A stretch of DNA of 64,000 nt from Mycobacteroides saopaulense (GTDB lineage: Bacteria; Actinomycetota; Actinomycetes; Mycobacteriales; Mycobacteriaceae). Shown piece by piece: positions 48,409 through 51,855 of the stretch. The DNA is taken from the NCBI RefSeq assembly GCF_001456355.1, contig NZ_CP010271.1, positions 2,418,001 to 2,482,000 of the forward strand, written 5' to 3'. The notes below the pieces were generated by a model that did not search any database, was not told where the DNA came from, and saw only the letters and a list, made by a program, of their open reading frames with translations. A program made the position numbers and the translations under genes. The first letter of the stretch is position 1; every line of letters starts with the position of its first letter.

Positions 48409-49140
48409 ATGGGGTTCCGGCAGATCTGGGGTACGGGGGTCGCGGCATTGCGCCGACTCCCGCGGCGTCAGCTGCTGTGGACCGGTGTCGCCGTGCTCAT
48501 CGTGCTCGCGGCCGCGCGATTCGTACCGGTGCCCACGGCCATCCAGATGCGCGATTGGGCGCGTGAGCTCGGCCCATGGTTCCCGCTGGCCTTCCTGGCC
48601 GCCCACACGATCGTGACGGTGCTGCCCTTCCCACGCACCGCCTTCACCCTGGCAGCCGGGCTGCTGTTCGGCACCCAGCTCGGCGTGCTGCTCGCGGTCG
48701 TCGCAAGTACGGCGAGTGCCGTCTTGGCGCTATGGACGGTACGCGCACTGGGATGGAAGCTGGCTGCGCTGCATCATCGGCCCGCGGTCAAGAAGGTCGA
48801 TGACCAATTGCGCCTACGTGGATGGATCGCGGTGATGTCGATGCGGCTCATCCCGGCGGTGCCGTTCTCGGTCCTCAACTACGCCGCGGGAGCCTCTGCC
48901 GTGCGGGTCATGCCGTATACGTTGGCCACCTTTGTGGGCCTGCTGCCGGGCACCCTCGCAGTCGTGGTCCTCGGTGACGCGCTCACCGGACACATCAGCC
49001 CGACGCTGTTCGCGGTTTCTTTGGTCACCTCGGTGGTCGGCGTGCTGGGCATCCTCTACGAGATCCGGCGCTACAAGCGCATCCACACCGAGATCGCCGA
49101 TGCCGAACCCTCGGACGAACCAGAGCGAGTGGGCGGCTAG
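48409..49140 (+). CDS. TVP38/TMEM64 (VTT/DedA-like) membrane protein (Rv1491c-like)
   Basis: A 243-residue membrane protein of the SNARE-associated/VTT family, relatives of which scramble or transport lipids. It has the conserved segments FLAAHTIVTVLPFPRTAFTL and ALWTVRALGWKLA, then MRLIPAVPFSVLNYAAGAS with the family RxxPxxPFxxxN-type signature. About five helices. It is divergent from mutA as Rv1491c is from mutA in M. tuberculosis. Its TAG overlaps that of the DoxX-like gene as CTAG. Confidence 0.86.
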   Translation: MGFRQIWGTGVAALRRLPRRQLLWTGVAVLIVLAAARFVPVPTAIQMRDWARELGPWFPLAFLAAHTIVTVLPFPRTAFTLAAGLLFGTQLGVLLAVVASTASAVLALWTVRALGWKLAALHHRPAVKKVDDQLRLRGWIAVMSMRLIPAVPFSVLNYAAGASAVRVMPYTLATFVGLLPGTLAVVVLGDALTGHISPTLFAVSLVTSVVGVLGILYEIRRYKRIHTEIADAEPSDEPERVGG

Positions 49141-49514
49141 GCCCGCCCGGCCCCCGATTGCTCGAACCCCTTGCCGGCCAGCGTCGCGAACAAGGCCAGC
49201 AGGCTCGCTGCGGGCACCGCATTGACCATCTTGTCGTGTGCACGGAGGTGAGCACCGACCGCCAGCGTGAAGTAGACGGTCAGCATGAACGCCGTCAATC
49301 GTCCCAGCGCGGGCCACCGGATGCCGCCGGCCAGGCCGACCGCCGATGCGGACTTGACCACCGGGAGAACCCACCAGATCCGTTGCGGCAAACCCACTTT
49401 CTCCAGGGACGCCTTGACGGGCCCAATCGGGCCGATACACACCGCGGCATCTGCTGCTTGCATCGCCGCCAACGTGGCCAATACCTTCGGATTCGCCAAA
49501 AGCCGCCCGGTCAT
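49137..49514 (-). CDS. DoxX-like membrane protein, copy B
   Basis: A 125-residue four-helix protein of the DoxX_2 type (VLATLAAMQAADAAVCIGP, ALGRLTAFMLTVYFTLAVGA, AVPAASLLALFATLAGKG). It is a paralogue of the gene just upstream: both share the helix-1 pattern LATFQAxDAAxCxxPI, the WxxxPxKxASAVGLxGGxR loop and the YFxLAVGAHLR helix. The ATG overlaps the TGA of copy A (ATGA). Function unknown; it may be the last gene of the M-box transcript. Confidence 0.8.
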   Translation of the reverse strand: MTGRLLANPKVLATLAAMQAADAAVCIGPIGPVKASLEKVGLPQRIWWVLPVVKSASAVGLAGGIRWPALGRLTAFMLTVYFTLAVGAHLRAHDKMVNAVPAASLLALFATLAGKGFEQSGAGRA

Positions 49515-49879
49515 GATGGTTTGGCCGTCAATCCCCTGGCTGCCAGGACACCGTAGGTGGCCAGCAGCGTCGATGCCGACACCGCATTCAGGCCGATATC
49601 ACGCACCCGCAGGTGGGCGCCGACGGCCAGGCTGAAGTAGAGCGTGAGCATGACCAGGGTCAGCTTGGCCAACGCGGGGAAACGCACACCACCCAACAGC
49701 CCCACCGCGGCCGCGGCTTTGATCGGCGCGAAGATCCATCGGCTCTGTCGCGGGAAGTGCACATCGTCAAGACATTTGGCCACATAGGGAATCGGCTGGA
49801 CACAGAGGGCCGCGTCGACAGCCTGGAATGTTCCCAATAATGCGAGAACTCTGGGAGATACGAAAGCGTCATTGCTCAT
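49511..49879 (-). CDS. DoxX-like membrane protein, copy A
   Basis: A 122-residue four-helix DoxX_2-type protein (ALLGTFQAVDAALCVQPIPY, AAAAVGLLGGVRFPALAKL, LTLYFSLAVGAHLRVRDIGL). GGAG lies 6 nt before the ATG. It begins 54 bp after the second microprotein gene on the same strand and is coupled to copy B. By position it could be co-transcribed with the microproteins under the M-box. Confidence 0.82.
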   Translation of the reverse strand: MSNDAFVSPRVLALLGTFQAVDAALCVQPIPYVAKCLDDVHFPRQSRWIFAPIKAAAAVGLLGGVRFPALAKLTLVMLTLYFSLAVGAHLRVRDIGLNAVSASTLLATYGVLAARGLTAKPS

Positions 49880-49933
49880 GGCTCCAGTGAACCACTACGA
49901 CACCAGGCAATCGATCGATCCGACCGATTCCCG

Positions 49934-50065
49934 CTAGTGCGATGCGTGTGCGCCCAGAGATGCGGAAATGACCGCCAGCGGCGACTGGGCCAGCTGCATG
50001 TTGGCCCGCTCCTGCGGGGTCAGCTGGTGGCGCTCCCAGAAACGTCGTAACGCGCGAATACTCAT
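49934..50065 (-). CDS. Microprotein 1 of a tandem pair, 43 aa
   Basis: The frame encodes 43 residues: MSIRALRRFWERHQL, then TPQERANMQLAQSPLAV and ISASLGAHASH. It is paralogous to the 45-residue protein encoded 84 bp upstream (the cores LTPQERANMQL and SPLAV.SASLGAH are shared), which is strong evidence that both are translated. The basic, amphipathic N terminus and absence of a membrane helix suggest a soluble or membrane-surface peptide. I recognise no family; the M. tuberculosis small gene Rv1535, also behind an M-box, is the first comparison to make. Confidence 0.75.
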   Translation of the reverse strand: MSIRALRRFWERHQLTPQERANMQLAQSPLAVISASLGAHASH

Positions 50066-50075
50066 GTATCCATTG

Positions 50076-50113
50076 GACGCGGTCGCGCCGGTGGAATCCA
50101 GCGCGACCGCGTC
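50076..50113 (-). terminator. 13-bp perfect hairpin between the two microprotein genes
   Basis: GACGCGGTCGCGC (50076-50088) and its exact complement (50101-50113) flank a 12-nt loop, in the 84-bp gap. There is no U-tract on the minus-strand transcript, so it may be a weak terminator, an RNA-processing barrier or a folding lock that lowers the level of microprotein 1 relative to microprotein 2. Confidence 0.6.
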
Positions 50114-50149
50114 TTCTAGACACTTTCATTACGGCGTCGCCGCCATCCC

Positions 50150-50287
50150 TTAGCGCGGTGGATGTGCGCCCAGTGATGCCGACACCACCGCCAGTGGCGA
50201 GTAGCTCAGCTGCATGTTGGCCCGCTCCTGCGGGGTCAACCGCCGCCGATCCCAGTAACGCCGTACTGCTCCAATGGTCAAGGTCAT
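50150..50287 (-). CDS. Microprotein 2 of a tandem pair, 45 aa, first full gene after the M-box
   Basis: Forty-five residues: MTLTIGAVRRYWDRRRL, then TPQERANMQLSYSPLAV and VSASLGAHPPR. A strong AAGGAG lies 8 nt before the ATG. It shares about two thirds of its residues with microprotein 1 downstream. It is the first well-supported gene after the riboswitch and so the most likely regulated product. Function unknown; the duplicated, conserved C-terminal half argues for a specific binding partner. Confidence 0.8.
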   Translation of the reverse strand: MTLTIGAVRRYWDRRRLTPQERANMQLSYSPLAVVSASLGAHPPR

Positions 50288-50338
50288 GATCGGACTCCTT
50301 TCATAGGGAGCTGCCGACCCAGCGCACGTCAGATGCGG

Positions 50339-50419
50339 CTATCGCGTGGAGGATTCACCGATGCGGGCAGGCCGAGTGGGCAGCTTCGATTGTCTGTACG
50401 GACTATCGCCGGGTTTCAC
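50339..50419 (-). CDS. Possible 26-codon upstream ORF in the M-box leader
   Basis: A GTG at 50419 lies downstream of AAGGAGGTGAGG, the best ribosome site in the window, and opens MKPGDSPYRQSKLPTRPARI, ending after 26 residues at TAG 50339. It sits between the riboswitch hairpin and microprotein 2. The spacing from AGGAGG to GTG (12 nt) is long, though GAGG at 7-8 nt fits. It may be a regulatory leader peptide rather than a functional protein. Confidence 0.35.
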   Translation of the reverse strand: MKPGDSPYRQSKLPTRPARIGESSTR

Positions 50420-50484
50420 GGGTATGCCTCACCTCCTTGCCTTCGGGACGCACGCGGGCGTCAAATCGCCGGTGCAGCAACAGG

Positions 50485-50533
50485 GAGAGAGAATGCCCGA
50501 AACCGTAATGCCGGCCGGGCGTGCACCTCTCTC
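50485..50533 (-). terminator. Expression-platform hairpin of the M-box
   Basis: GAGAGAG and CTCTCTC arms (50527-50533 and 50485-50491) enclose an inner CGCCCG/CGGGC stem. The 5' arm in the RNA is the 3' end of the aptamer, so the hairpin and the closed aptamer are mutually exclusive. No U-run follows, which would suit Rho-dependent or structural control. Confidence 0.6.
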
Positions 50534-50690
50534 GTCAGGGCTTCGGCACTGCGCGACGTGTCCGTATCACGGAAGCCACTTTGGGTCATCCCTTAGTCCG
50601 GGAAGACCTGTCCTAACCTTGGGCGTCTCTCGACGTCGTCAGATCAGTGGCCTGTGTTCACGCAGGAGCCTCACCTAGCAAGGTGCTGAA
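50526..50690 (-). promoter_or_regulatory. M-box (ykoK-type) magnesium riboswitch
   Basis: On the minus strand the conserved M-box blocks occur in order: TAGGTGAGGCTCCT (50664-50677), the GTCGAGAGACGCC segment, and CAGTGCCGAAGCCCTGAC toward the 3' end (down to 50526). Spacing of about 140 nt matches the family. M-boxes sense Mg2+; high Mg2+ normally turns expression off. In M. tuberculosis M-boxes precede Rv1535 and PE20. Here it precedes two microproteins and, further on, two DoxX-like genes. This stretch (50288-50700) has no other large gene. Confidence 0.93.
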
Positions 50691-50699
50691 CCGAAATCC

Positions 50700-50705
50700 A
50701 CTATA
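50700..50705 (-). promoter_or_regulatory. -10 hexamer of the M-box transcript
   Basis: TATAGT on the minus strand ends about 10-25 nt before the first M-box block and overlaps the TAG stop of the SPFH gene, so the riboswitch RNA would start near 50693. A clear -35 element is not seen. Confidence 0.6.
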
Positions 50706-51855
50706 CCCCGGGAAGTCCGTGACGGCTCGTCGGATCGATCGCCGGGTCCACCGAGCCGATTTCCTTGGCCGCCGATTGCGCCTCGGCAAGCGCCGCAGCG
50801 ACTTCCGGAGTGGTCTTGGTCTCGAACCAACCGGCGACCTCGTCGGAGTCGTCCTCGGGACGCTCTGATGTTTCATCGACCGGGGAGGGTTCGTAGCGGA
50901 ACACACCGTCGGAGCCCGGCGCGCCCAGCAGCTTGGTGAAGCCCTGCAGCGCCGAGCCGAAGTCGCTGGGGATCAGCCACACCTTGTTGGCCTCACCCTG
51001 CGCCATCTTCGGCAGCGTCTGTAAGTACTGGTATGCCAACAACTCTGGTGTGGGCTTGCCGGACTTCACTGCCGCGAAGACCTTTTCGATGGCCTTGGCT
51101 TGGCCCTGAGCCTGCAGATATTGAGCGGCACGCTCACCCTCGGCCCGCAGGATGCGCGACTGCCGATCGGCCTCTGCCGAGAGAATCGCCGCCTGCTTGG
51201 CACCCTCGGCCGCTAAGATCTGCGACTGCTTGGCACCCTCGGCCTGCTTGATGGAGGCCTCGCGCACACCCTCCGCGTTCAAGATCATGGCGCGCTTCTC
51301 GCGGTCGGCCTTCATCTGCTTTTCCATCGATTCCTGCACCGAAGGCGGGGGGTCGATGGAGCGCAGTTCGACCCGGGCCACCCGCAGTCCCCAGCGTCCC
51401 GTCGCCTCGTCGAGCACCCCGCGCAATTGGCCGTTGATCTGATCGCGCGAGGTCAGCGTCTGCTCCAGGGTCATGCCGCCGACCACGTTGCGCAGCGTGG
51501 TGGTGGTCAGCTGCTCGACACCCACGATGTAGTTGCTGATCTCGTAGACTGCGGCCTGTGGATTGGTGACCTGGAAGTAGACGACGGTATCGATATTCAC
51601 CGTCAGGTTGTCCTCGGTGATGACCGGCTGGGGCGGGAACGACACCACCCGTTCACGCAGATCAACCTTGGCCCGGATGCGGTCGACAAACGGCACCAGA
51701 ATGGTCAACTGGCCGCTGACGGTCTTCGAATACCGCCCCAGACGCTCGATCACCGCGGCCTCCGCCTGCGGGACCAGAGCCACGGACTTCAGCACGATGG
51801 TGACGCCCAGGATGATCAAGACGATCAGCACAAAGGCTCCGGCAGCTACTCCCAT
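50701..51855 (-). CDS. SPFH/stomatin-like membrane protein (Rv1488-like)
   Basis: A 384-residue stomatin/prohibitin-type protein: one N-terminal membrane helix (FVLIVLIILGVTIVLKSVAL), an SPFH domain (AEAAVIERLGRYSKTVSGQL, VITEDNLTVNIDTVVYFQV) and a long Ala/Glu-rich coiled coil with EGAKQSQILAAEGAKQAAIL-type repeats. Such proteins form ring assemblies that organise membrane proteases. It is paired with the NfeD-like gene upstream (30-bp gap), the usual partner. Its stop codon carries the -10 element of the M-box transcript. Confidence 0.92.
   Translation of the reverse strand: MGVAAGAFVLIVLIILGVTIVLKSVALVPQAEAAVIERLGRYSKTVSGQLTILVPFVDRIRAKVDLRERVVSFPPQPVITEDNLTVNIDTVVYFQVTNPQAAVYEISNYIVGVEQLTTTTLRNVVGGMTLEQTLTSRDQINGQLRGVLDEATGRWGLRVARVELRSIDPPPSVQESMEKQMKADREKRAMILNAEGVREASIKQAEGAKQSQILAAEGAKQAAILSAEADRQSRILRAEGERAAQYLQAQGQAKAIEKVFAAVKSGKPTPELLAYQYLQTLPKMAQGEANKVWLIPSDFGSALQGFTKLLGAPGSDGVFRYEPSPVDETSERPEDDSDEVAGWFETKTTPEVAAALAEAQSAAKEIGSVDPAIDPTSRHGLPGV

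Follow-up and report, generated by a model that had tools for sequence, protein, structure and literature searches.

The locus described here lies at positions 49137 to 50705 of a 64,000-nucleotide (nt) stretch of DNA from Mycobacteroides saopaulense (contig NZ_CP010271.1, positions 2,418,001 to 2,482,000; hereafter the window) and consists of an M-box Mg2+ riboswitch followed on the same strand by a short peptide gene, two microprotein genes and two genes encoding DoxX-like proteins. An initial annotation, made from the sequence alone, described the locus accurately and all open reading frames (ORFs) it listed are present. The features are as follows, where SD stands for Shine-Dalgarno sequence, uORF for upstream ORF and aa for amino acids:

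50700..50705, minus strand: TATAGT, a -10-like element that overlaps the SPFH stop codon TAG (50703-50701)
50520..50689, minus strand: M-box Mg2+ riboswitch aptamer (RF00380, 150.5 bits)
50521..50536, minus strand: SD1 or anti-anti-SD strand, shared with the 3' side of P1, predicted to pair with the anti-SD
50481..50494, minus strand: pyrimidine-rich anti-SD, present in 11 of 11 Mycobacteroides leaders and predicted to pair with SD1 or SD2
50427..50438, minus strand: SD2, AAGGAGGUGAGG, invariant in 11 of 11 leaders
50339..50419, minus strand: uORF2/Rv1805A-type peptide MKPGDSPYRQSKLPTRPARIGESSTR, 26 codons with a GTG start, assigned by position, SD and Pro7
50150..50287, minus strand: microprotein 1, 45 aa, with SD AAAGGAG at 50301-50295
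50134..50149, minus strand: putative deletion junction, where MgtE-like and NRAMP-related genes sit in relatives (locus comparison)
50076..50113, minus strand: hairpin (13 pairs in the window's copy) whose end lies 10 nt ahead of microprotein 2
49934..50065, minus strand: microprotein 2, 43 aa, without SD, assigned by family profile and relatives
49511..49879, minus strand: DoxX_2 protein A, 122 aa (PF13564, 36.4 bits; Pfam cut-off 26.3)
49137..49514, minus strand: DoxX_2 protein B, 125 aa, in ATGA overlap with A (PF13564, 41.8 bits; cut-off 26.3)

The proposed M-box was borne out by Rfam, since the minus strand matches RF00380 over model positions 1-169 with an E-value of 2.7e-34 and a score far above the gathering cut-off of 44. 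This is the sole Rfam match above gathering score in the window, and one of two M-boxes in the genome. The locus contains, besides the M-box, a uORF2-type peptide, two M-box-linked microproteins (67% identical to each other) and two DoxX_2 proteins (48% identical), and no transporter pair. The arrangement is not due to chance: 10 other Mycobacteroides loci show it with the same neighbours on both sides, and in 8 of them two extra genes are present inside.

These 8 relatives (G219, G168, G146, G242, G091, G087, G189 and D16Q14), in which the locus lies between SPFH and VTT/mutA, show the order M-box, uORF, microprotein 1, MgtE-like cytoplasmic protein, NRAMP-related Mg transporter, microprotein 2 and one or more DoxX genes. 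At locus L082 the pair comprises an MgtE_N+CBS protein of 434 aa and an Nramp protein of 572 aa. Between microprotein 1 and the MgtE-like gene the full-operon relatives (L082-L088) also carry a long inverted repeat of the CCAATACGCTTCG...CGGAGCGTATTGG type. The pair is absent from the window, LB1 (G309) and S154 (G297), and thus no Mg transporter is a member of the operon in the window; comparison with L082 puts the absent stretch at the junction at about 3.2 kb. No MgtE-like match at 1e-60 was found elsewhere in the genome either, while 94 of 392 genomes have one. The window spacer ahead of microprotein 2 (CGTAATGAAA, followed by the hairpin) matches the post-transporter spacer of the relatives, and the single microprotein of S154 starts like copy 1 and ends like copy 2. 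We consider it probable that the window holds an M-box operon from which the MgtE-like/NRAMP-related Mg transporter pair was lost and in which the microproteins were kept.

The opposite direction, in which Mycobacteroides started from the short form and the other species gained the transporter pair by insertion between the two microproteins, seems unlikely. Loss is the likelier direction because four loci outside the clade (L178, L046, L176 and, from another genus, L207) already have the M-box followed by microprotein, MgtE-like gene and transporter. The S154 copy, which resembles a fusion of copies 1 and 2, and the window's post-transporter type of spacer likewise argue against insertion. Several points weigh against loss nonetheless. 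The microprotein of L178 is a weak match (E 6e-5) and a gap of 1.2 kb precedes the MgtE-like gene in L046 and L176. The flanking-gene trees, all unrooted, do not unite the short-form genomes, a point in favour of an ancestral short form: the SPFH tree joins the window with S154 (support 98) and LB1 with full-operon species (99), the VTT+mutA tree joins LB1 with CBMA271 (95), and the three flanking genes combined join the window with S154 (97) and place LB1 elsewhere (63). Loss therefore requires recombination or repeated events. Since the window and LB1 share their breakpoint, and all three short forms share the promoter region and uORF type, the comparison suggests that the short haplotype was moved by recombination.

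That the operon is merely decaying and has no current function appears very improbable. The transporter pair is absent and DoxX B is broken in S154, but the M-box scores 150.5 bits and the ratio of nonsynonymous to synonymous substitution rates (dN/dS) between window and LB1 is just 0.067 for microprotein 1 and 0.035 for microprotein 2 (43-45 codons).

The microprotein family is a stronger finding than the operon itself. Its members measure 43-90 aa and share the core LTPQERANLYVSRMPIAVVTASLGGHP. None of 25 members matched Pfam and a single one had a single match in NCBIfam, at E 0.065; no description of the microprotein was found in the literature, supplements and most subscription papers lying outside the search. 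A profile search retrieved 684 proteins at E 0.01 or better and, among the matches listed (120 of the 684), those that carry a name are mostly hypothetical proteins of Mycobacterium, with one from Rhodococcus. The 25 members have a net charge of +3 to +10 and no strongly hydrophobic stretch of 19 residues (maximum 0.56-1.25). Kinship with Rv1535, a comparison suggested by the initial annotation, was ruled out by profile comparison (hhalign probability 0.1%). Matches of the microprotein profile to TAL-effector repeats in PDB (best E 4.2e-5) were ascribed to chance because no single stretch passes alone.

The family profile matches 190 of 396 Mycobacterium genomes (E 0.01), draws from a larger group, and an M-box was found in 199. 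Both occur in 182 genomes, the microprotein alone in 8, the M-box alone in 17 and neither in 189 (Fisher P 1.8e-80, a test that counts genomes rather than neighbours and ignores shared ancestry). Batches of more than 40 genomes were run under stricter Infernal filters, which may have cost some M-boxes. Among the 8 genomes with the microprotein alone, the matches are weak in five (E 9e-4 to 8e-3) but not in G066, G314 and G394. In the wider family (161 genomes) both were found in 24, the microprotein only in 6, the M-box only in 22 and neither in 109. Two points count against a strict association. Of the genomes outside the window's own genus 17 have both, 6 just the microprotein, 22 just the M-box and 105 neither, a weaker link, and among them G407, G424, G477, G490 and G534 have the microprotein gene away from the M-box.

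At the level of loci, a scan of genome contigs yielded 64 named microprotein loci, in 62 of which an M-box precedes the microprotein gene on its own strand; the remaining two are L111 and L125, a contig edge. M-boxes of L102-L165 were identified by blastn with 31 query aptamers rather than by the covariance model. At the equivalent locus of genus g30 (L200-L203 versus L209 and L210) the microprotein is kept, with an M-box in two species and none above the Rfam cut-off in four, all of which have one elsewhere. In Rhodococcus oryzae and R. maanshanensis (L109, L110; 7041-8138) two divergent M-boxes lie approximately 230-250 nt apart, one facing a P-type ATPase and the other the microprotein. L092 and L093 have a second microprotein gene directly upstream of the M-box, outside its control.

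An NRAMP-type transporter follows the microprotein in 41 of the 62 M-box-linked named loci, which raises the possibility that the microprotein serves the NRAMP-related Mg transporter as a dedicated accessory and, in the window, acts in trans on the transporter of the second M-box. MgtS and MgtR are accessory small proteins of other Mg transporters. That second M-box (L032; G000:C1:4506640-4506809) heads such a transporter directly, its uORF (MQSGDSPYPSP...) being followed by a 578-aa NRMT-type protein with no microprotein in between. The remaining 21 of the 62 loci, however, have no such transporter in the flank, although C-terminal fragments occur in L127 and L155 and a relative of 24% identity in L163. 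S154 (G297), moreover, keeps M-box and microprotein while its sole Nramp scores like the MntH-type gene present in all ten genomes compared. The dN/dS of the microprotein core is also about the same without the transporter (0.24) as with it (0.26). Each value comes from 10 loci, drawn from the 21 that lack the transporter (NRAMP fragments being present in two of those used) and from the 41 that have it; L203 yielded no core. These ratios indicate that the microprotein is under purifying selection where the transporter is gone. A dedicated accessory role is hence a doubtful explanation, though one to be kept in mind.

The second-M-box gene deserves separate mention. The window's genome has this Nramp and one other, whose score resembles that of the gene present in all ten genomes compared. 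Its best PDB match is 7qia, presumably EleNRMT, at E 8.6e-55, the next match being at 3.8e-16. The NRMT signature has been given as DxxG-TxxA/T (PMC8806188). DAGG and TTVA, which comply with it, occur in the lost transporter type as well as in the second-M-box gene, the latter being by this signature an NRMT-type, predicted Mg transporter. Of 43 named loci in which an NRAMP-like motif is present, 42 carry the signature. M-box NRAMP genes have been published as an 'Mn2+-type' class, with a manganese/iron transporter annotation in M. avium (PMC3774663). Given the Mg-transporter signature of these genes (L104-L161; 42 of 43), that label may mislead.

Because the microproteins persist without the transporter, their partner would not be an adjacent transporter alone. 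They may be soluble, basic cytosolic effectors of Mg starvation. As a tentative proposal, well short of an even chance, the microprotein could be a Mg-starvation effector of Mycobacterium sensu lato and some of its kin, made almost constantly by the M-box genomes of that group, that has a core cytoplasmic target (the ribosome, the nucleotide/Mg pool or a conserved Mg channel being candidates) and does not act on the transporters often found beside it, these being exchangeable cargo.

Regulation of the locus can be read from its leader. The initial annotation had proposed a promoter at TATAGT; the element does overlap the SPFH stop, yet a sigma-70 consensus scan of 49100-50800 did not return it. 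Consensus scans of that region gave neither promoters nor terminators, in which they did no better than on shuffled sequences (mean of 0.5 promoters). TATAGT occurs also in S154, with TATGAT at the equivalent position in LB1, and the 8 full-operon relatives have TTGACA-17-CATCAT at the promoter place.

The 26-codon ORF downstream fits the published description of the uORF2/Rv1805A-type M-box peptide, which has a conserved proline as its seventh residue (D'Halluin et al. 2026, PMC12810186): the window peptide, MKPGDSPYRQ at its start, has the appropriate SD, position and Pro7. In M-box leaders such a short ORF starts 74-123 nt downstream of the aptamer. SD and short ORF were found in 123 of 125 distinct M-box downstream regions, and an xDSP-type core in 102 of 125, compared with 534 of 6150 shuffled peptides. 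Here exact repeats only were removed, close relatives being counted more than once, and the core pattern, of GDSP type, was drawn up after some of the peptides had been inspected. The uORF dN/dS of 0.43-0.59 among short-form loci speaks less favourably for the peptide. The M. abscessus mgtE M-box leader has a ribosome-protected uORF related to VcgB (PMC4974804).

Pairing of the anti-SD is predicted with SD1 (-9.5 to -17.1 kcal/mol) and with SD2 (-8.4 to -13.6 kcal/mol) in 11 of 11 Mycobacteroides leaders, as energies only, without a shuffled control. In the window the GGAGG of SD2 is predicted to be 4% unpaired with P1 forced versus 41% with the 5' strand of P1 open. Folding with P1 closed covered 8 of the 11 leaders, 4 of which (window, S154, M. 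franklinii and D16Q13) show clear predicted masking of GGAGG. The other four fit less well, masking being slight in G091 and G219, nil in CBMA271 and reversed in LB1. Mean accessibility over the 12 nt of SD2 is lower with P1 closed in 8 of 8 leaders, in two by just 0.01 or 0.02. At this level of modelling the leader pairing agrees with the published model of the Mycobacterium tuberculosis M-box. At the pe20 M-box of that species the control of uORF2, now Rv1805A, combines a translational platform with Rho (D'Halluin et al. 2026, PMC12810186). At high Mg2+, P1 would be closed and keep the SD1 strand engaged, so that the anti-SD could pair with SD2 instead; the uORF would remain untranslated and transcription would stop early, by Rho. 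At low Mg2+, SD1 would pair with the anti-SD and release SD2, the peptide would be made and the transcript would proceed into the microprotein and DoxX genes. We infer Mg induction of the cluster from this predicted layout.

The DoxX genes are less securely part of the unit. None of the 10 copies of microprotein 2 compared has an SD, and the hairpin that precedes it is conserved: over 10 sequences (S154, which lacks that spacer, was left out) 93.1% of cells are paired, which is reached by 3 of 500 shuffles, and changes on both sides occur in 2 pairs, a count reached by 23 of 500. The hairpin might terminate the transcript, serve as a processing site or assist translation initiation in the 3' part. 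A promoter and terminator of their own, which according to the initial annotation would isolate the DoxX genes from the riboswitch, were not found by consensus scan, though with the hairpin in between the 3' genes may or may not share the transcript.

That annotation saw in the locus a Mg2+-starvation unit with microproteins acting with or on small membrane proteins. The M-box head and microproteins under selection hold; a self-standing microprotein-on-DoxX system is not supported. Such a dedicated system, in which M-box-induced microproteins bind or regulate the two DoxX-like proteins, is quite improbable. Microprotein 2 ends 54 nt before DoxX A on the same strand, and in each of the 11 Mycobacteroides loci compared, that of the window among them, a microprotein adjoins DoxX, the one in S154 being a single chimeric copy. 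Outside Mycobacteroides, however, a DoxX gene was seen near just 2 of 57 named microprotein loci, where flanks of up to 8 kb were covered; these two have 34-38% identity and lie 6-7 kb away. Within Mycobacteroides there is a single DoxX in 3 of 8 full-operon relatives, and in S154 (L102) a premature stop cuts DoxX B off after 43 codons. The link to DoxX seems restricted to Mycobacteroides and unstable, and for this reason the dedicated system is not supported. DoxX B has a dN/dS of 0.16-0.32 for pairs among window, LB1 and S154 (the latter on 43 codons; DoxX A was left out) and this purifying selection points to some role. Since a hydropathy scan gives one membrane-like segment in each DoxX protein, the term membrane protein rests on the Pfam family; no PDB relative of the DoxX profile was found.

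M-boxes are read as Mg-transporter switches, and mycobacterial M-boxes ahead of other genes are hard to explain. A protein without a family entry that outlives the transporter, and that 182 of the genus's 199 genomes with an M-box possess, bears on this, and the locus allows one to ask whether the microprotein is needed in Mg starvation without an adjacent transporter.

Among known systems, the M. abscessus mgtE (MAB_2717c) leader has M-box and uORF ahead of mgtE (PMC4974804), as at the full-form locus type, and the gene named MgtE-like here is probably MAB_2717c; the window differs in having neither that gene nor the NRAMP-related one. NrmT has been described as paired with an MgtE cytoplasmic-domain gene, many such pairs being M-box controlled (PMC4072509). 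NrmT/NRMT plus MgtE-domain pairs (PMC4072509, PMC8806188) are of the same kind as the pair absent from the window and present in its relatives, whose loci have a microprotein, while the passages covered of these papers describe none. The M. tuberculosis pe20 and rv1535 M-boxes (PMC12810186) share with the window the aptamer, the SD1/anti-SD/SD2 layout and a Pro7 peptide as first regulated ORF, but the window has microproteins and DoxX instead of a PE/PPE, MgtC or Rv1535 gene. A term search of the main text of that paper returned DoxX zero times, and the parts of it covered name no such microprotein. Rv1535 is, like the window microproteins, an M-box-linked small protein, of dissimilar sequence by profile comparison. 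Compared with these systems the uORF type is already published; the operon is a variant without its transporter, and the M-box-linked microprotein family is unnamed.

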